Below, one piece after another: positions 1 to 5,283 of a stretch of 5,283 nt of DNA. This DNA is from Pseudomonadota bacterium. GTDB lineage: Bacteria; SAR324; XYD2-FULL-50-16; JAHJRI01. Each line of letters starts with the position of its first letter. The first letter of the stretch is position 1. The DNA lies in contig JAKSDL010000578.1 of assembly GCA_022360105.1 (NCBI GenBank), positions 1-5,283 on the forward strand, in the 5' to 3' direction. The position numbers and the translations under genes were made by a program. A model generated the notes under the pieces. That model saw only the letters and a list, made by a program, of their open reading frames with translations. It did no database searches and was not told the origin of the DNA.

Positions 1-137
1 ACGTGCCGGCCTACGACATGGGCTATAAATCCGTGGAGGTGATCGCGCGGAATCTTAACGCCAAGGAACCAAAAGTGGTGCACAAATGTCTTGACGCACC
101 GATTGTTTTTCGCGAATCCACTCAAACCATCAGCTGA
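1..137 (+). CDS. LacI-family transcriptional regulator, C-terminal fragment (5' end outside window)
   Basis: Only the last 44 codons are present, read from base 3 to the TGA at 135-137. The segment has the layout of the end of a LacI/PurR-type sugar-sensing domain: a PAYDMGYKSVEVIARNL stretch matches the family's 'P..eMG..AvelL' helix, and the end, IVFRESTQ, matches the very common '(V)RESTA' strand that closes the periplasmic-binding-protein-like fold. Such proteins bind a sugar or nucleoside effector and repress nearby catabolic genes. The DNA-binding N-terminus is not in the window, so a free-standing periplasmic sugar-binding protein is a less likely alternative. It lies 82 bases upstream of a DeoC-like aldolase, which would suit a local regulator, but no operator was identified. 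The family call is fairly secure; effector and targets are unknown. Confidence 0.72.
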   Translation, partial: VPAYDMGYKSVEVIARNLNAKEPKVVHKCLDAPIVFRESTQTIS

Positions 138-219
138 AAAAATCAGATTTTCAATCGTAAGTGACTGTTTTGATGAGGATCGGCACCCTGCATCATTTTA
201 ACAAACAGGTAGTATAAAA

Positions 220-945
220 ATGGAAACAACCAAACAGATGGAGATTCAACGTTATATCGACTACTCTACGCTAAAACCCGAGATGACCGTGGATGAGGTA
301 AAGGGAGCATTGGAACGTGCCATAGAGGACAACTACAAAGCGATTTGTGTTCGCCCTTGTGACATTGAAATGGCAGTCGCCATGTGCAAAGGAACCGATA
401 CCGTATCCTGTTGTGTACTGGACTACCCGCATGGCACCGGAGGGAAAGAGGCAAAAAAGGCACTTACCGAGATTTATGCCAAACAGGGAATCGAAGAGAT
501 TGACATGGTCATGAATTTCGGTTTGGCCCGCTCAGGGTTGTGGGATAGTGTCGGAGAGGAGATCACAGCTGTCACACGAGCAGCTCATGACAACGGAGCG
601 ATTGTCAAAGTGATCTTTGAAATTGGACACCTGACGCTGGACCAGATTGGGAAAGCAACGGAAGTCTGCATCGAGTGCGATGCTGACTTTGTTAAAACCT
701 GCACCGGTTTTTACGAACCTGTCACGGAAGAAGCAGTGAAGATGATGTTGGATACGGCTGCAGGGCGGACGAAAGTAAAGGCATCAGGCCCTGGTATCTT
801 TGATTTGGCAACCGCAAAAAAATACATTGATCTGGGAGTCGAGCGACTGGGTATCGGATCTGCGTTTTCGGACAAGATCCTGGCTGAATCCCGTGGCATC
901 GACGTATCCGAAATGGATAAGGGTATCAGCAAGGGCGAGTATTAG
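220..945 (+). CDS. deoC: DeoC-family class I aldolase (deoxyribose-phosphate aldolase-like)
   Basis: The 241-aa product has the length and motif order of DeoC, a cytoplasmic Schiff-base aldolase that cleaves 2-deoxyribose 5-phosphate into acetaldehyde and glyceraldehyde 3-phosphate in deoxynucleoside breakdown. Visible motifs are IDYSTLKP (residues 13-20, family form IDHT.LKP), ICVRP (42-46), DMVMNFG (95-101, with the conserved Asp95), FVKTCTGF (157-164, Lys159 as the expected Schiff-base lysine) and VKASGP (186-191, Lys187 as the second active-site lysine). A glycine-rich GIGS (211-214) fits the phosphate-binding loop. Two departures from classical DeoC are IDYST for IDHT and GFYEP after the Schiff-base lysine, where DeoC usually has GFST and a glycine-rich loop, so the natural substrate may differ. 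The start at 220 has only a weak upstream AGGTAG; Met7 is an alternative. It follows the LacI-type gene and precedes a UroD-like gene by 143 bases. Confidence 0.86.
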   Translation: METTKQMEIQRYIDYSTLKPEMTVDEVKGALERAIEDNYKAICVRPCDIEMAVAMCKGTDTVSCCVLDYPHGTGGKEAKKALTEIYAKQGIEEIDMVMNFGLARSGLWDSVGEEITAVTRAAHDNGAIVKVIFEIGHLTLDQIGKATEVCIECDADFVKTCTGFYEPVTEEAVKMMLDTAAGRTKVKASGPGIFDLATAKKYIDLGVERLGIGSAFSDKILAESRGIDVSEMDKGISKGEY

Positions 946-970
946 AGACGAGGCCCGGTGCTTGACATGG

Positions 971-1018
971 CCGGCCTGTAAACCGGTTAACACTCAATAT
1001 CTGCTTCATAAAGGCCGG
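971..1018 (+). repeat. Intergenic inverted repeat between the aldolase and first UroD-like gene
   Basis: CCGGCCT (971-977) is exactly complementary to AGGCCGG (1012-1018) across a 34-base loop, and the loop contains a small perfect palindrome, AACCGGTT (981-988). There is no T-run after the right arm, so this is not a canonical intrinsic terminator. It could be an operator or a transcript-processing hairpin, or chance in a CCGG-rich stretch. Nothing else is recognisable in this 143-base gap apart from the ribosome binding site AGAGG at 1078-1082. Confidence 0.3.
986..993 (+). repeat. GTTAACAC intergenic direct repeat, copy 1
   Basis: This is the first of three identical octamers with a GTTAAC palindromic core, located in the gap between the aldolase and the first UroD-like gene and overlapping the AACCGGTT palindrome. 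See the other copies at 3913-3920 and 3973-3980. The purpose is unknown. Confidence 0.28.
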
Positions 1019-1088
1019 ATGCCAACGTTTGATTTTTCAGAGTGAACGGATGCATGTGATTGTATTTTAGCTTAAACAGAGGATAAAA

Positions 1089-2114
1089 ATGACCTACACA
1101 GCCTTTGACCGCTTCAACGACGCGATAACGTCCAGTCCCAAGGATCGTGTGCCCGTAATAGCAGGAACGATTCTTTGGGGTGCCACCAATTTTCCGGGCG
1201 CATCCTATCAGGAAATCGTCTCGGACCCGGAACTGATTGCCGCGGCACAACTGTGGGTAAAGGAAACCGTTTCCTTTGACCTCGTTTATCCCACCCCGGA
1301 CAACTTTTTCATTGGGGAGGCGTTCGGATGCAAGATTCGATATTCCGACGGGGATCCGATCCTGGACCACCTTCCGATGAAATTAAAAACCTTAAATGAC
1401 ATTGATGCGATTAACTTTCCAAACCCCAGAAAAGACGGCAGATTTCCGGTGGTTTTGGCAGCGGCAAAACGATTGTTTGAAGAGACAAAAGGAACGATTC
1501 CCATCATGGCAAATATTGAAGGAGTGTTTACGGTTGCCACCCGCATCATAGATCCTTCACAGATTCTGCGCATGACCCTCAAAACACCGGAAGTATTGGA
1601 CGTTTTTTTGGACAGGATCAATCGAGTGTTGATTGAGCTTTCCTTAGCGCTTGTGGAAAACGGGGTGAATTCCATATCCATGCCGGAGCCGACAGCTTCT
1701 TCGAGCATGCTCTCGCCCAAGATGTTCAGGAGATTTGTTCTTCCCCGTCTCCAGGAATATACAAAGGAAGTGAATGTTCCGGTCATGCTCCATATCTGTG
1801 GCGATACGGCTCCGATATTGGATGCCATGGCAGAGACGGGAGCGGATATCCTCAGTCTGGATCAGTGCATGAACCTTGCGGAGGCTAGAAAGGTTTTACC
1901 GGAAACAGTGATTGCCGGAAACGTTGATCCCGTGGATTCTCTGCTGATGGGAAAGGTTGAAACGGTTGAACAGGATGCGCTCCGCTGCCTTGAAACCATG
2001 GGAACCGAACGATTCGTTCTGATGCCCGGCTGCGGAATTCCTCCCAAAACATCCATTGAGAATCTCAAGGCGATGGTTCAGACTGCATCCGATTACGGCT
2101 TGGGGAAAAAATAA
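1089..2114 (+). CDS. UroD/MtaA-like methyltransferase with intact zinc site
   Basis: The 341-aa protein belongs to the uroporphyrinogen decarboxylase superfamily, on the MtaA/MtbA/CmuA side rather than true HemE. Those zinc enzymes move methyl groups between a corrinoid protein and a thiol such as coenzyme M. The metal-site signature is complete: LHICGD places His235 and Cys237 as ligands, and LMPGCGIPP places Cys315 as the third, the arrangement used by MtaA. GNVDP (277-281) before the last ligand is also typical. HemE is unlikely because these zinc ligands are present and a HemE-type arginine-rich N-terminus is not evident. The start is well supported by AGAGG at 1078-1082, six bases upstream. 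No corrinoid-protein gene is in view, so the methyl donor and acceptor cannot be named. It is a distant paralogue of the protein at 2882-3913, and its Cys315 aligns with that protein's in-frame TGA. Confidence 0.85.
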   Translation: MTYTAFDRFNDAITSSPKDRVPVIAGTILWGATNFPGASYQEIVSDPELIAAAQLWVKETVSFDLVYPTPDNFFIGEAFGCKIRYSDGDPILDHLPMKLKTLNDIDAINFPNPRKDGRFPVVLAAAKRLFEETKGTIPIMANIEGVFTVATRIIDPSQILRMTLKTPEVLDVFLDRINRVLIELSLALVENGVNSISMPEPTASSSMLSPKMFRRFVLPRLQEYTKEVNVPVMLHICGDTAPILDAMAETGADILSLDQCMNLAEARKVLPETVIAGNVDPVDSLLMGKVETVEQDALRCLETMGTERFVLMPGCGIPPKTSIENLKAMVQTASDYGLGKK

Positions 2115-2251
2115 CCGGCAACCTTCACCAAGTTTCATTCACAGCGAACCGGGAAACAAAAACCGAGGGTGATGGGATTCCAGCCTTGATTCGGAACGAT
2201 GAGGGTCAAATCCCGTTATTGCAAACCATCTTTTTTAAATAAGGAAAAAAC

Positions 2252-2848
2252 ATGAACGATACAAAAAACTGGGCACTGAAAGGAGTTTTCTACGAGTGTT
2301 GCCGCGTTGAGGACGGTCATTGTTCACTATGGTTCAGAAGGGACCTGCCTCATGCCTGTACCAACATGGCGACCTATCGGATTACCGAAGGCCACATTCA
2401 GGGCGTTGATATGAAAGATGTTGTGATAGTGCTGCACCAGGACGGAATCGGTCCGACCATCGACGAATTGGTGCAAGGGGCAGCTGAAGGAGCAGCTTAT
2501 TTCAGCAACAATGTAAATGATAAGCAGAAAGATCTATTGGAAACCTTTCTTAAAACAGAGATCGGTATCCGGCCCTGGAAGAAGAATCTGGGCATTAAAG
2601 TCGCCGAGATCAATGTTGTTGAGGACAATGGCAGCTACCACATCACTATGCCGTTTGGGGAACATAAGATGACCCTGACCAGCGGGGGTGACAAAAGCAA
2701 TCCCATGCAGATGGAAAACCCTTTCAATCCGGCTTTAAGCAACTACAGGTTCTGCAATACCGATTTCTGGAGTTTTCACGATTACGGCAAAAACCTGGAA
2801 TATAAGAATGCAAGCGGTATGGTGGCAGAATTTGCTTTTAGCGGCTGA
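2252..2848 (+). CDS. DUF1326 domain-containing protein
   Basis: The 198-aa product resembles the DUF1326 family, whose biochemical function is not established. Supporting features are the N-terminal NWALKGVFYECC (residues 6-17), matching the family's 'W.l.G.y.e.C' opening, Cys24 and Cys36 following in the usual cysteine-rich segment, and YRITEGHIQGVDMKDVVIVL (42-61), matching 'f.I..G.y.gv.l.gl.v'. The classic CPC motif is replaced by HCSLW. The C-terminal part includes NPFNPALSNYRF (156-167) and FWSFHDYGKNLEY (172-184). There is no signal peptide or membrane helix, so a cytoplasmic protein is expected. The ribosome binding site AAGGA (2241-2245) sits six bases before the start. The next gene begins 33 bases after the stop, so the two are probably co-transcribed. 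The clustered cysteines could bind metal, but that is a guess. Confidence 0.72.
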   Translation: MNDTKNWALKGVFYECCRVEDGHCSLWFRRDLPHACTNMATYRITEGHIQGVDMKDVVIVLHQDGIGPTIDELVQGAAEGAAYFSNNVNDKQKDLLETFLKTEIGIRPWKKNLGIKVAEINVVEDNGSYHITMPFGEHKMTLTSGGDKSNPMQMENPFNPALSNYRFCNTDFWSFHDYGKNLEYKNASGMVAEFAFSG

Positions 2849-2881
2849 TTTTTAATAGAACACTCTTAATGGAGCGAATCA

Positions 2882-3913
2882 ATGGCGAAACAGATGCTGC
2901 TCGACGCAACGCGCGGGCAAAATACCGAAAGGGCTCCCTGGGTCCCTTATGCCGGTGTCAATTGTGCGTACCTGATAGGCGAAACGGCCAAATCCTATCT
3001 CAAGGATCCCGGATTAATCGCAAAAGGTGTTGTAGAAGCTGCTAAAACCTATCATGCAGACGGGATTCCCCTGCTGTTTGACCTTTCCGTGGAAGCCGAA
3101 GCGGTAGGGTGTGAGGTCGAACATTGGGATGACAACGTTCCTTCGGTCAGGACTCACCCCTGCGAAACAAAGACTCCGGAAGAGCTGGGGATGGGTATTT
3201 TCGACAAAGAAGACGGTCGCTGGCCGATCATATTTGAAGCCGCTGCGAAGGCCAAACCCGAATTGGATAAGATGGATTGTGCTATGCTGGGGTTGGCTGC
3301 GGGGCCTTTAACCCTTGCTTCTCACCTGGCTGGAGTCCGAATTTTCACCTCAGTAAAAAAGAACAAGGAATTTGCCCACGCTCTCGTGAACTATGCCGGT
3401 AAACTATGCGCCCAGTCTGTTCGTTACTATGTGGAAATGGGGTGCGATCCCATTGCCATCGTTGATCCGGTAGCGTCTCAGATTCGAGCGGAAACATTCA
3501 GAGAATTTGTAACCCCCAACTGTCAGGAGGCGCTTGAGGTCATCAATGCGGCTAACAGGACTTCGAGTTTCTTCATCTGCGGCGATTGCACCAAGGTCAT
3601 AGAAGAGGTCTGCCAAGTGGGTACGCATGGCTTTGCCATTGATGAGCAGCTGAACATGAACTTTGTCCGCGACACTGCCCTGAAATACAAAAAGGGTTTT
3701 GGCGGTAACCTGAAACTAACGCTGGCTCTTAGTCTCGGTTTGATTTCACCAAGGGAAGATGCAATTGTCAGCCTGGCTGCCGGAGGAACAAGGGGATACA
3801 CCTTTGCCCCTGGCTGAGACCTCCCATTTGATGTTCCGGCGGAACATCTGATTCAGGCTTATGAAGCGAGAGAATGGTTCATGGAACATTATCCCAAGTA
3901 TCCCGAGACCTAG
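2882..3913 (+). CDS. Selenocysteine-containing UroD/MtaA-like protein (TGA at codon 312 read as Sec)
   Basis: The frame from ATG 2882 reaches a TGA at 3815-3817 after 311 codons, then stays open for 31 more codons to a TAG at 3911-3913, giving 343 aa, close to the 341 aa of the paralogue at 1089-2114. The read-through residues fit the family: FAPG-U-DLPFDVPAEHL matches the 'PGC.iP..tp.enl' end of MtaA-like proteins, so the TGA replaces the third zinc-ligand cysteine. A strong hairpin follows the TGA at bSECIS distance. Other motifs are GCEVEHWDDNVPSVRTHP (76-93) and FFICGDC (230-236). In the last, the usual His of H-x-C is Phe231 while Cys233 is kept, so the metal site is remodelled. GGAG (2871-2874) supports the start. 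It probably acts on a methyl group or metal-bound thiol/selenol; the substrate is unknown. A true stop at 3817 would remove the ligand and the last helix. Confidence 0.87.
3815..3817 (+). other. In-frame UGA, probable selenocysteine codon (Sec312)
   Basis: This TGA sits between GCC-CCT-GGC and GAC-CTC-CCA in an otherwise uninterrupted frame. The paralogue at 1089-2114 has cysteine (Cys315) at the aligned position inside PGCGIPP. Homologous sequence continues after the codon, and a bSECIS-like hairpin begins 12 nt downstream. Confidence 0.86.
3830..3848 (+). promoter_or_regulatory. bSECIS hairpin for the UroD-like selenoprotein
   Basis: GATGTTCC (3830-3837) and GGAACATC (3841-3848) form a perfect 8-bp stem around a GGC triloop. 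The stem starts 12 nt after the UGA, and 20 nt separate the UGA from the first loop G. Bacterial SECIS elements lie within the coding sequence just after the UGA, with a guanine in the first two loop positions and roughly 16-37 nt between UGA and loop; this element fits all three. The extra pairs U3828-G3850, U3827-A3851 and A3826-U3852 below a U-U mismatch could lengthen the stem. It would recruit SelB with Sec-tRNA. Confidence 0.83.
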
Positions 3914-3920
3914 TTAACAC
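3913..3920 (+). repeat. GTTAACAC intergenic direct repeat, copy 2
   Basis: The octamer GTTAACAC occurs at 986-993, 3913-3920 and 3973-3980, always outside or at the edge of genes. This copy overlaps the last base of the TAG of the UroD-like selenoprotein gene and lies exactly 60 bases from copy 3. The core GTTAAC is a palindrome. The function is unknown and chance is not excluded. Confidence 0.3.
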
Positions 3921-3972
3921 ATTATTGAAACCTTTAAACCCAGACCGCGTTAAATTATAGCCACACACGGCT

Positions 3973-3980
3973 GTTAACAC
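3973..3980 (+). repeat. GTTAACAC intergenic direct repeat, copy 3
   Basis: This copy sits in the 99-base gap before the first thioredoxin-like gene, 32 bases upstream of its ATG. With the preceding T it forms the perfect palindrome TGTTAACA (3972-3979), which could be a half or whole operator. The rest of the gap shows the ribosome binding site GGAG (3999-4002) and an AT-rich stretch (3950-3960) that could hold a weak promoter, but no convincing -35/-10 pair at proper spacing. Confidence 0.3.
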
Positions 3981-4012
3981 GTAAACCCACAAACCATTGG
4001 AGTACGATAATC

Positions 4013-4405
4013 ATGAAAGAAAAAATACGCATTGATGTGCTTACGCTGGACAGCGTTCAATGTCCTGCCTGTGGGTATATGATGGAGTCTATCGCCGCGC
4101 TTCCCAACGATGTGCAGGAAATGATTCTTTATAAGGAGTGGTCCATCAAATCCAAGGATGGCATCGCCATGTTCACGAAGCTAAAAGGTAAGGTCTTGCC
4201 GACAGTCTGTATTGAGGAGGACCTGGTCTTTCAAAGCATCATCCCTCAATACGAGGAATTGATCGACGCCCTGGCAGACAGGGCACATTCCGATGAACAG
4301 CGTGACCGTATCTTGTTATTGAGGGACAAAGGATTTGACTTTGACAACATCAAGCAGAATCTGGAAAAAGCCGGTGCGGGTAAAAAAACCCGCACAGATG
4401 TGTAA
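4013..4405 (+). CDS. Thioredoxin-fold protein with CPAC active site
   Basis: The first 90 of 130 residues form a small thioredoxin-like domain: a beta strand (IRIDVLTL, 5-12), the redox motif Cys17-Pro-Ala-Cys20 at the start of a helix, a KEWSI strand (41-45), the cis-proline motif LP at 62-63 facing the active site, and a closing strand and helix with IPQYEELIDAL (77-87). Length and layout resemble small archaeal/bacterial thioredoxin- and glutaredoxin-like proteins. Residues 91-130 are a charged tail, partly helical (SDEQRDRILLLRDKG), absent from the two neighbours. There is no signal peptide, so it acts in the cytoplasm. GGAG at 3999-4002 supports the start. It aligns without gaps over 90 residues to the Sec protein at 4840-5121 (35 identities by hand count), with Cys17 opposite Sec17. 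It is a likely disulfide reductase or redox partner of the adjacent enzymes; the partner is unknown. Confidence 0.8.
   Translation: MKEKIRIDVLTLDSVQCPACGYMMESIAALPNDVQEMILYKEWSIKSKDGIAMFTKLKGKVLPTVCIEEDLVFQSIIPQYEELIDALADRAHSDEQRDRILLLRDKGFDFDNIKQNLEKAGAGKKTRTDV
4374..4395 (+). other. Strong hairpin at the 3' end of the CPAC thioredoxin gene
   Basis: GTGCGGGT (4374-4381) pairs perfectly with ACCCGCAC (4388-4395) across a loop of six A residues, an 8-bp GC-rich stem ending 10 bases before the stop codon's last base. No T-run follows, so it is not a textbook intrinsic terminator. It could slow transcription, protect the mRNA 3' end or mark a processing site that sets different levels of the neighbouring genes. 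Confidence 0.5.
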
Positions 4406-4474
4406 GCTCCCTTAAAAACCTACAATGCACGCTGATCGGAAAATCACGGCGTAGACTAGAATATGTTTTAACGG

Positions 4475-4816
4475 ATGCAAGATAAGATTCACATTGAAGT
4501 CACGTTTAAAAACATCTCAAACCTGCCCTGTGTTTACATGGAAAAGGCGGTTCTGGAAATTGTATCGCTAAACAGGCACCGGGTGAAATACAGCAGGTTG
4601 GATATCAGAACGGAAGCAGGCCGAAAACGTTTTCTCTCACTTTCCTGTTCCTTATATGGCGAGAAGGCTGTCTACGTAAACCACCGTTTGGCACCCATCC
4701 CGGGATTGTTTATTAATGGAGAACTGATGTTTGACATCATTCCATCCAGGCAGGAACTGGAAAAAGCAATTGACGACCAGTTGTCCAAGGTGGGAATGGC
4801 AAACGGTGATTCGTGA
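4475..4816 (+). CDS. Thioredoxin-like protein with degenerate active site (NLPC)
   Basis: The 113-aa product starts like its neighbours (MQDKIHIEV compared with MKEKIRIDV and MHEKVLIEV) and ends with the same strand-helix pattern (LFINGELMFDIIPSRQELEKAI, about residues 78-99). Where the first neighbour has Cys-Pro-Ala-Cys this protein has Asn16-Leu-Pro-Cys19, so the first redox cysteine is lost and the second kept. The cis-proline position is IPG (74-76). The middle (residues 30-60) is diverged and richer in Arg and Lys. A dithiol cycle is not possible at this motif; a monothiol, binding or scaffold role is more likely. No clear ribosome binding site precedes 4475, but the start is supported by alignment of the N-termini. 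It lies 69 bases after the CPAC gene and 23 bases before the ATG chosen for the Sec-containing gene, consistent with one transcript. Confidence 0.68.
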   Translation: MQDKIHIEVTFKNISNLPCVYMEKAVLEIVSLNRHRVKYSRLDIRTEAGRKRFLSLSCSLYGEKAVYVNHRLAPIPGLFINGELMFDIIPSRQELEKAIDDQLSKVGMANGDS

Positions 4817-4839
4817 AGATGCACGACATGACAAACATG

Positions 4840-5121
4840 ATGCATGAAAAAGTACTGATTGAGGTCTTTGTTACCAATTTAAGGCAATGAGCGGCCTGCG
4901 TCTGCATGATGCAAGCGGTAAGGGGCCTGCCGCAAGAGATTAAGGCAATGGTTGAAATCAGGGAGTGGAACCTGTCCATAGCCGATCATATTGCCGAATT
5001 CAAGCGCGTAAAGGTGAAAAGGCTTCCCAGCATCGCCATCAATGGCGACACGGTCTACGAATCTCTGATACCGGATCAGGAGGAACTGATCGACCAAATC
5101 AGGAAACGACTAATTGGATAA
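4840..5121 (+). CDS. Selenocysteine-containing thioredoxin-like protein (UAAC active site)
   Basis: From ATG 4840 the frame reads 16 codons, meets a TGA at 4888-4890, and continues 76 codons to TAA (5119-5121), giving 93 aa. It aligns without gaps over 90 residues to the protein at 4013-4405 (35 identities by hand count). The TGA falls at residue 17, exactly on Cys17 of that protein's CPAC, giving Sec17-Ala-Ala-Cys20. The cis-proline (LP, 62-63) and the IPDQEELIDQI end (77-87) are also conserved. A stop there would make no sensible protein; the fragment starting at 4906 lacks the first strand and the active site. In-frame ATGs at 4819, 4828 and 4837 are alternative starts, and none has a clear ribosome binding site; 4840 is chosen because MHEKVLIEV lines up with both paralogues. 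Cys22 is an extra cysteine. The expected role is a highly reactive selenol-based oxidoreductase. Confidence 0.85.
4888..4890 (+). other. In-frame UGA, probable selenocysteine codon (Sec17)
   Basis: This TGA lies between CAA and GCG in a frame whose sequence on both sides is homologous to the upstream CPAC thioredoxin-like protein. The aligned residue there is the leading active-site cysteine, and a cysteine three residues later is conserved, giving the U-x-x-C motif typical of redox selenoproteins. Confidence 0.84.
4891..4933 (+). promoter_or_regulatory. Candidate bSECIS structure for the thioredoxin-like selenoprotein
   Basis: The top stem TGCA (4903-4906)/TGCA (4910-4913) encloses a UGA triloop whose second base is G, and begins 12 nt after the Sec codon, as in the upstream element. 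Below an internal loop, C4896-G4918, U4897-G4917, G4898-C4916 and C4899-G4915 can pair, and GCGGC (4891-4895) can close the base with GCCGC (4929-4933). The four-pair top stem is weak and other foldings are possible, so the Sec call rests mainly on homology. Confidence 0.45.
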
Positions 5122-5130
5122 CTCAGCAAA

Positions 5131-5283
5131 ATGAAACCCACAACCGACGTATTCCTCATCACCGGTTTTCTCGGCAGCGGGAAAACCACGTTTCTAAACC
5201 GGATCATTCAAGCGTTCCCCAAGGATCGCAAACTGATGATCTTGATGAACGAATTCGGGGACATAGGCCTGGACGGAACCCTA
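5131..5283 (+). CDS. CobW/G3E-family GTPase, N-terminal fragment (3' end outside window)
   Basis: Fifty-one codons are present and the frame is open at the window edge. The start shows the P-loop GFLGSGKTT (residues 12-20) after a hydrophobic strand, then NEFGDIGLD (40-48), the combination typical of COG0523/CobW-type G3E GTPases. Members of this family act as cytoplasmic metal or cofactor chaperones that use GTP to insert zinc, cobalt, nickel or corrinoid into target proteins. The CxCC metal motif usual in COG0523 lies further downstream and cannot be seen, so the subfamily and metal are undetermined. The gene begins nine bases after the stop of the Sec thioredoxin-like gene and therefore probably shares its transcript. 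Only a weak GGA (5116-5118) precedes it, suggesting translational coupling. Its position suggests metal supply for the UroD-like enzymes, which is inference. Confidence 0.85.
   Translation, partial: MKPTTDVFLITGFLGSGKTTFLNRIIQAFPKDRKLMILMNEFGDIGLDGTL

Follow-up and report, generated by a model that had tools for sequence, protein, structure and literature searches.

A predicted selenoprotein of the UroD/MtaA fold with selenocysteine at the third zinc-ligand position and an adjoining thioredoxin gene

Among described enzymes with the UroD fold, the point of reference for the gene considered here is MtaA, the methylcobamide:coenzyme M methyltransferase of Methanosarcina mazei (4ay7/4ay8). The S-methyltransferases of this superfamily hold zinc in a His-Cys-Cys sphere, which favours soft ligands, and related proteins occur in selenium-linked clusters, as described in the accessible sections of PMC10418091. 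The subject of this report is a gene of the same fold on contig JAKSDL010000578.1 (positions 1 to 5,283; this whole 5,283-nt stretch is called the window, its numbering is used throughout, and L and G numbers denote loci and genomes of relatives). In this gene, an in-frame TGA codon falls at the position of the third MtaA zinc ligand and, on comparative grounds, is almost certainly decoded as selenocysteine (Sec). The product is 25% identical to MtaA but differs from it in being bacterial, in its predicted Sec, in lacking the His ligand, in having a thioredoxin gene next to its own, and in falling below the curated score of TIGR01463 (MtaA/CmuA; 117.9 of 235.4 bits) and the cut-off of NF040654 (MtaA equivalog; 99.9 of 400 bits).

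Among enzymes of corrinoid methyl chemistry, HgcA is a precedent for the use of Sec; it carries the residue on the corrinoid protein itself and has a different fold. HgcA is entered as a corrinoid selenoprotein in Table 1 of a 2026 review (PMC13188914); this table, with its 119 selenoprotein families and subfamilies, contains no UroD or MtaA family. The earlier note on this DNA had asked whether a Sec subfamily of this kind had already been described; it is absent from that table, and with this gene a fold outside those 119 would gain a selenoprotein family. Nor is a UroD or MtaA selenoprotein family found in the accessible text of two earlier surveys (PMC2398784, PMC9312934), in a search whose range left out most subscription papers. 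Comparable in gene content are the Mlp proteins, from type I mlp gene clusters, and Sdm, a methyl-selenide system, both from anaerobes, in which an MtaA-like protein is combined with a corrinoid protein and an activase; methyl chemistry on a soft atom (S or Se) has been proposed for them, and ClMlp2 was assayed for methylcobalamin:selenide transfer (PMC10418091, PMC11097638, accessible sections). In these systems, however, selenium is the proposed substrate rather than an enzyme residue, and their methyltransferases are not termed selenoproteins in those sections. The first methyltransferases (MT1) of the CdmB/OdmB/VdmB type share the UroD fold, some of them without zinc, but act on haloalkane or methoxyaromatic substrates, and the available part of their description (PMC13222342) does not mention Sec.

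The open reading frame begins with an ATG at 2882, meets the TGA at codon 312 and ends with a TAG at 3911–3913. Reading through the TGA gives 343 residues, as the earlier note had proposed, and raises the Pfam URO-D score (PF01208, over its gathering score) from 142.2 to 159.4 bits. Relatives were collected by scanning genome contigs, one genome per species, with two family peptide patterns; the best 80 of the 104 found were kept, and the codon counts therefore describe this kept sample only. Codon 312 is TGA in 75 of the 80 genome loci (76 of 81 sequences with the window), TGC in three, TGT in two, and TAA or TAG in none. Since the TGA recurs in this way, a sequencing error that had replaced TGC or TGT, a possibility raised in the earlier note, is ruled out, and so is a pseudogene. 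In the protein database, 93 of the best 120 matches stop with PG directly before residue 312, 26 have Cys there and one (P0075) has Trp; all 27 of the full-length matches run on past this residue. Both the Cys homologues and the other TGA genomes that the earlier note had thought worth seeking have thus been found, and the homologues do not all end before residue 312. Most close relatives are therefore stored cut short at a predicted active-site residue, presumably because Sec is written as a stop codon. Several of the relatives are labelled uroporphyrinogen decarboxylase, a name that gains no backing from the score against HemE (TIGR01464; 59.9 bits, cut-off 302.95).

Comparison of relatives indicates that the codons beyond the TGA are under purifying selection. 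Among 532 pairs at 80–95% identity, the ratio of nonsynonymous to synonymous differences (pN/pS) is 0.11 in the 60 codons that precede the TGA and 0.13 in the 30 that follow. For silent divergence, the values are 0.57 in those 30 codons, 0.75 over codons +12 to +30, which lie mostly outside the predicted hairpin described below, and 0.69 upstream. The distance from the TGA to the next in-frame stop is 31–47 codons across the 76 Sec sequences, and is 32 in 59 of them.

A hairpin just downstream would help to decode the UGA at codon 312 as Sec. Its stem lies around GTTCC/GGAAC, between +15 and +33 counted from the TGA, and closes on a three-base loop that begins with G in 70 of the 76 Sec sequences; a G at the start of the loop is the rule for the bacterial selenocysteine insertion sequence (SECIS). 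The tested stem has, on average, 6.66 of 8 pairs in the Sec sequences versus 4.64 when their codons are redrawn synonymously, and in its 7-pair form 93.1% of the cells are paired, compared with at most 57.9% in controls in which the register was slid. Silent variation in the hairpin is low: Val +6 is GTT in 74/74 sequences and Pro +7 is CCG in 70/76. The five Cys loci form 2, 3, 3, 5, and 5 of the 8 pairs, and none of them is clearly more stable than its own redraws.

The machinery for Sec decoding was sought, as selB and tRNA-Sec, in the genomes of 50 of the 77 loci listed from the 80, which were chosen by hand and include the five Cys loci. Every one of 14 control genomes gives a match at the loose threshold, so only matches over the curated cut-off were counted: these amount to 44 (selB) and 43 (tRNA-Sec) among the 50 genomes of relatives, and to two and five, respectively, among the controls. 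Of the four genes for the Sec machinery that the earlier note had named, selB and the tRNA-Sec gene (selC) are those sought here, and most of the relatives' genomes searched have them. As for the five Cys-type genomes, both components are present in G010, G039, and G048, selB alone in G049, and neither in G012.

The subfamily is rare in samples drawn by phylum. Around G003, it occurs in 9 of 395 genomes (eight with TGA, one with Cys; a tenth match is a 36% relative), and around G018 in 5 of 398 genomes at an identity of at least 50%. A FastTree tree was made with residue 312 masked from 76 Sec rows, 32 rows classed as Cys (including P0075, with its Trp) and 14 rows of fused proteins; in rows L070, L071, and L076, a fixed offset placed stops ahead of the true start. 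Fitch parsimony on this tree gives 11 changes between Sec and Cys, or 10 if P0075 is counted as Sec, its Trp probably representing TGA. A TGA at the position of codon 312 is also found in the fused L102 (37% identical) and in the distant L112, both of which lie outside the tree. Sec appears to have arisen at residue 312 on more than one occasion.

In a phmmer alignment to 4ay7, residue 312 corresponds to the third zinc-ligand Cys of MtaA, and it also corresponds to C315 of the paralogue in the window; here the earlier note was right on both points, as it was about the fold, and the comparative evidence for its Sec is strong. Its picture of Sec as one of the ligands of a normal MtaA zinc site is not supported as it stands. 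All 122 rows have Phe, Leu, or Tyr in place of the triad His, which leaves no ordinary His-Cys-Cys zinc site; of the triad, only C233 and residue 312 (Cys or Sec) are kept. C233 and H148 are invariant in the 122 rows. C236 was considered as a substitute zinc ligand, an idea weakened by the finding that it is Cys in 38 of the 76 Sec rows and Ala in half of these rows and in all 14 fused rows.

The partner suggested by gene order is the small thioredoxin-like protein TrxA. Of the 77 loci that extend at least 900 nt downstream, 70 have a TrxA homologue beginning within this distance, at a median gap of 32 nt, and in the distant Cys relative L090, the UroD domain and a thioredoxin form one polypeptide, with a CobW gene adjoining. 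With the unfused window protein as the query, 13 loci were found at 33–40% identity, of which ten are fused (L099, L101–L109) and three unfused (L098, L100, L112). With a fused protein as the query, all 120 database matches listed are fused proteins of 450–473 residues with a C-terminal C-x-x-C-x-Y-M, a count that is not a frequency, because the ranking from such a query favours fused proteins; these matches carry F231, C233, A236, and C312. Because the adjacency is conserved and natural fusions exist, the idea that TrxA and the UroD protein act together is supported by evidence of the Rosetta-stone type. The fused and split forms, with Cys or with Sec, offer a ready natural comparison. Sec in TrxA itself was also considered and is ruled out, since both motif codons are Cys (TGC/TGT) in 73 of 74 homologues.

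The wider neighbourhood points to corrinoid chemistry. Among the 28 loci flanked on each side by 5.9 kb or more, a corrinoid protein is encoded in 21, a CobW GTPase in 21, a RACo-type activase in 16, a Cys-containing UroD paralogue in 16, a thioredoxin reductase in 10, and an MtrH/MtgA-like protein in 10 (neighbour families were named from one representative each). In 17 further stretches, the UroD gene has near it a corrinoid protein gene in 7, an MtmB-type gene in 5, and a CobW gene in 11. No gene for a corrinoid protein or a reductive activase lies within the window; in L001, its closest relative, the corrinoid gene follows CobW, that is, beyond the point at which the window ends. The CobW gene lies within 3.5 kb downstream in 36 of the 55 loci with that much room.

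Taken together, these comparisons suggest, with a probability of roughly 0.6, a Sec-containing MtaA-like protein of the UroD fold that acts in corrinoid-dependent methyl metabolism and whose Cys/Sec pair is served by TrxA. The hosts would be anaerobes, and the names of many mark them as sulfate-reducing bacteria; the TGA form occurs in the cultured Desulfocicer vacuolatum DSM 3385 (L003), Desulfospira joergensenii DSM 10085 (L006), and Desulfofundulus australicus DSM 11792 (L018). The Cys233/Sec312 pair in the centre of the barrel would bind and activate a soft substrate or methyl acceptor (a thiol, a selenol or similar) and would take the methyl group from the corrinoid protein, or pass it to this protein. 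TrxA would reduce the pair after a selenenylsulfide had formed, or would supply the reacting thiol. For the CobW GTPase, a part in metal loading or in the upkeep of the system is possible. As to the pair itself, a CxxC thioredoxin that adjoins the protein or, in relatives, is fused to it, on which the earlier note is silent, would speak for a site of redox activity or thiol exchange no less than for a metal site; the chances of a redox or thiol-exchange role are about even, and such a role can be reconciled with Sec being a true metal ligand. A bolder proposal goes further: a barrel-fold, corrinoid-coupled methyltransferase without the zinc His, in which a dedicated or fused thioredoxin recharges the Cys/Sec pair, the methyl group is moved by selenenylsulfide/thiol-exchange chemistry and Sec was gained more than once, would be an undescribed mechanism, and we put it forward tentatively, as something that may well turn out otherwise.

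Several observations weigh against the reading of a Sec protein served by TrxA in a corrinoid system. With regard to the hairpin, seven of the 76 Sec sequences (L069–L072, L074, L076, and L077) have only 3–4 of the 8 pairs in the tested register, which places them below two of the Cys loci; inspection by eye shows ACGTTC..GAACGT, in a different register, in all seven. There is little covariation, with changes on both sides in 3 of the 7 pairs (5 cells), and the controls slid by −2 and +2 have 7 such cells, the +2 control having a covariation score of 0.123 versus 0.063. With regard to the machinery, two TGA genomes (G041, with L068, and G044, with L072) have neither selB nor tRNA-Sec over the cut-off, possibly because these genomes are incomplete (G044 has selB fragments of 193 and 146 bits); G013, G017, and G028 have tRNA-Sec but no selB over the cut-off, and G005, G007, and G022 have selB but no tRNA-Sec over it. 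Several nodes of the tree are poorly supported. There is no TrxA nearby in 7 of the 77 loci (L007, L016, L017, and L020 with Sec; L012, L078, and L079 with Cys), 19 of the 55 loci have no CobW within 3.5 kb, and GCxCC, the usual CobW motif, is missing from 47 of the 48 CobW proteins.

One alternative makes Sec312 a ligand of a metal, whether zinc or some other soft one: C233, Sec312, and one more donor (H148, a Cys of TrxA, or C236 in proteins that have it) would hold the metal, which would activate a thiol or selenol for methyl transfer as in MtaA. Such a site would be in keeping with the place of residue 312, with the invariance of C233 and H148 and with the nearness of a CobW GTPase in 36 of 55 loci, and with the soft-ligand preference of the superfamily zinc sphere (PMC10418091, accessible sections). 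It has to contend with the loss of the His from every row, with a residue 236 that is Cys in just 38 of the 76 Sec rows and Ala in every fused row, and with CobW proteins that nearly all lack GCxCC; moreover, some UroD-fold methyltransferases function without zinc, CdmB being the example in the available part of PMC13222342. On balance, a metal-ligand role is a real but minority possibility. Sec at this position raises the question of whether selenium tunes metal-thiolate methyl transfer or replaces the metal.

Another possibility is that the protein is either a second methyltransferase (MT2), with a small thiol accepting the methyl group of the corrinoid protein, or an MT1 that removes methyl groups from a thioether or selenoether, thioredoxin serving only to protect the selenol. 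The nearby genes for a corrinoid protein, a RACo-type activase and MtrH/MtgA-like proteins would fit this scheme, as would a separate MT1 candidate of the MtmB family, found in 9 of the 81 sequences (e.g., L003 3144–4526, L004 3810–5192, and L016 1081–2463). Eight of these MtmB genes are open over 460–472 aa in the standard code, with no in-frame amber, and the ninth encodes 404 aa; in seven, ordinary residues come after GRPG close to what we take to be the place of pyrrolysine. There is a precedent in MtqB, a non-pyrrolysine MtmB homologue that demethylates tetramethylammonium and choline according to the accessible text of PMC13044021. However, candidates for MT1 and MT2 already exist in some of the loci, and the fusion of thioredoxin to relatives of the protein suggests more than protection. 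This scheme is less likely than not.

That the true product stops at the TGA (311 aa), the downstream stretch being merely a conserved RNA or a decayed end, would agree with the 93 of 120 database entries whose gene calls stop there. It is made very improbable by a pN/pS after the TGA similar to that before it, by the full-length matches (26 with Cys, one with Trp) that extend beyond residue 312, by the absence of TAA or TAG from all 80 loci, and by the completion of the URO-D match on read-through. Least probable of all, to the point of being negligible, is an alternative code in which TGA means tryptophan: P0075, possibly called under such a code, is the only one of the 27 full-length matches with Trp, while the other 26 have Cys, most of the TGA genomes searched have selB and tRNA-Sec over the cut-off, and the hairpin is more stable than its synonymous redraws in the TGA set only.

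Table 1. Features of the window, with their positions and the evidence for each.
Feature	Position	Strand	Basis
Predicted UroD/MtaA-fold selenoprotein, 343 aa with Sec312	2882..3913	+	Open reading frame with TGA read-through
Predicted Sec codon TGA (codon 312), aligned with the third zinc-ligand Cys of MtaA	3815..3817	+	80 genome loci; 4ay7 alignment
SECIS-type hairpin, TGA +15 to +33, stem GATGTTCC / GGAACATC, loop GGC	3830..3848	+	Pairing versus slid controls
TrxA, small thioredoxin-like protein, CxxC (CPAC), probable partner of the selenoprotein	4013..4405	+	Adjacency; fusion in distant relatives
TrxB, second thioredoxin-like protein	4475..4816	+	NF047660 (HUIPC), 58.1 of 105 bits, below cut-off
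Third thioredoxin-like protein, likewise predicted to contain Sec (TGA 4888–4890, RQ-U-AAC)	4819..5121 (start 4819 or 4840)	+	Homologous TGA sites
Start of CobW-type GTPase gene, the rest cut off by the window end	5131..5283	+	PF02492, 50.7 bits
Paralogous UroD/MtaA-like protein, normal His-Cys-Cys triad (H235, C237, C315)	1089..2114	+	Sequence comparison
DUF1326 protein between the two UroD genes	2252..2848	+	PF07040

The DUF1326 gene was found in 2 of the 81 sequences searched, the window included, the other carrier being L001. An Rfam scan of the window gave two chance matches alone (E-values of 2 and 2.8). In place of GCxCC, 44 of the 48 CobW-type proteins have GSxFCxC (e.g., L060 2909–3943), and because of this they may form a distinct subgroup of the G3E GTPases. 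Genes nearby prompted the thought of a role in arsenic or metal detoxification: DUF2284 occurs in 27 loci, an aquaporin-family gene in 6, and one thioredoxin match is ArsE-like (TIGR00412). This role is kept as an idea only, none of the roughly 20 annotated family representatives being arsenic-specific. On contig 79 of G355 (L090/L113), the fused UroD-thioredoxin gene adjoins CobW, CysE-like, NifS-like, and NifU-like genes, named by eye, which hints at a link to sulfur.

All three small thioredoxin-like genes of the window have as their best NCBIfam match NF047660, the HUIPC motif thioredoxin-like (seleno)protein, but their scores (28.3, 58.1, and 23.3 bits) are well short of its cut-off of 105. 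The third of them has homologues with TGA at the RQ-U-AAC codon (24 sites, that of the window included) and reaches 23 bits against PF13192 (cut-off 24.8); given its HUIPC score of only 23.3 bits, it may represent another undescribed selenoprotein subfamily. In L074 (5590–5868), a small thioredoxin-like match has a TGA in a different column (NDFVRUVSC), perhaps through a shifted alignment or as a further Sec variant. In open reading frame translations, the TrxB of the window has a single Cys at its motif (NLPCVYM), where that of the relative L073 has CxxC.
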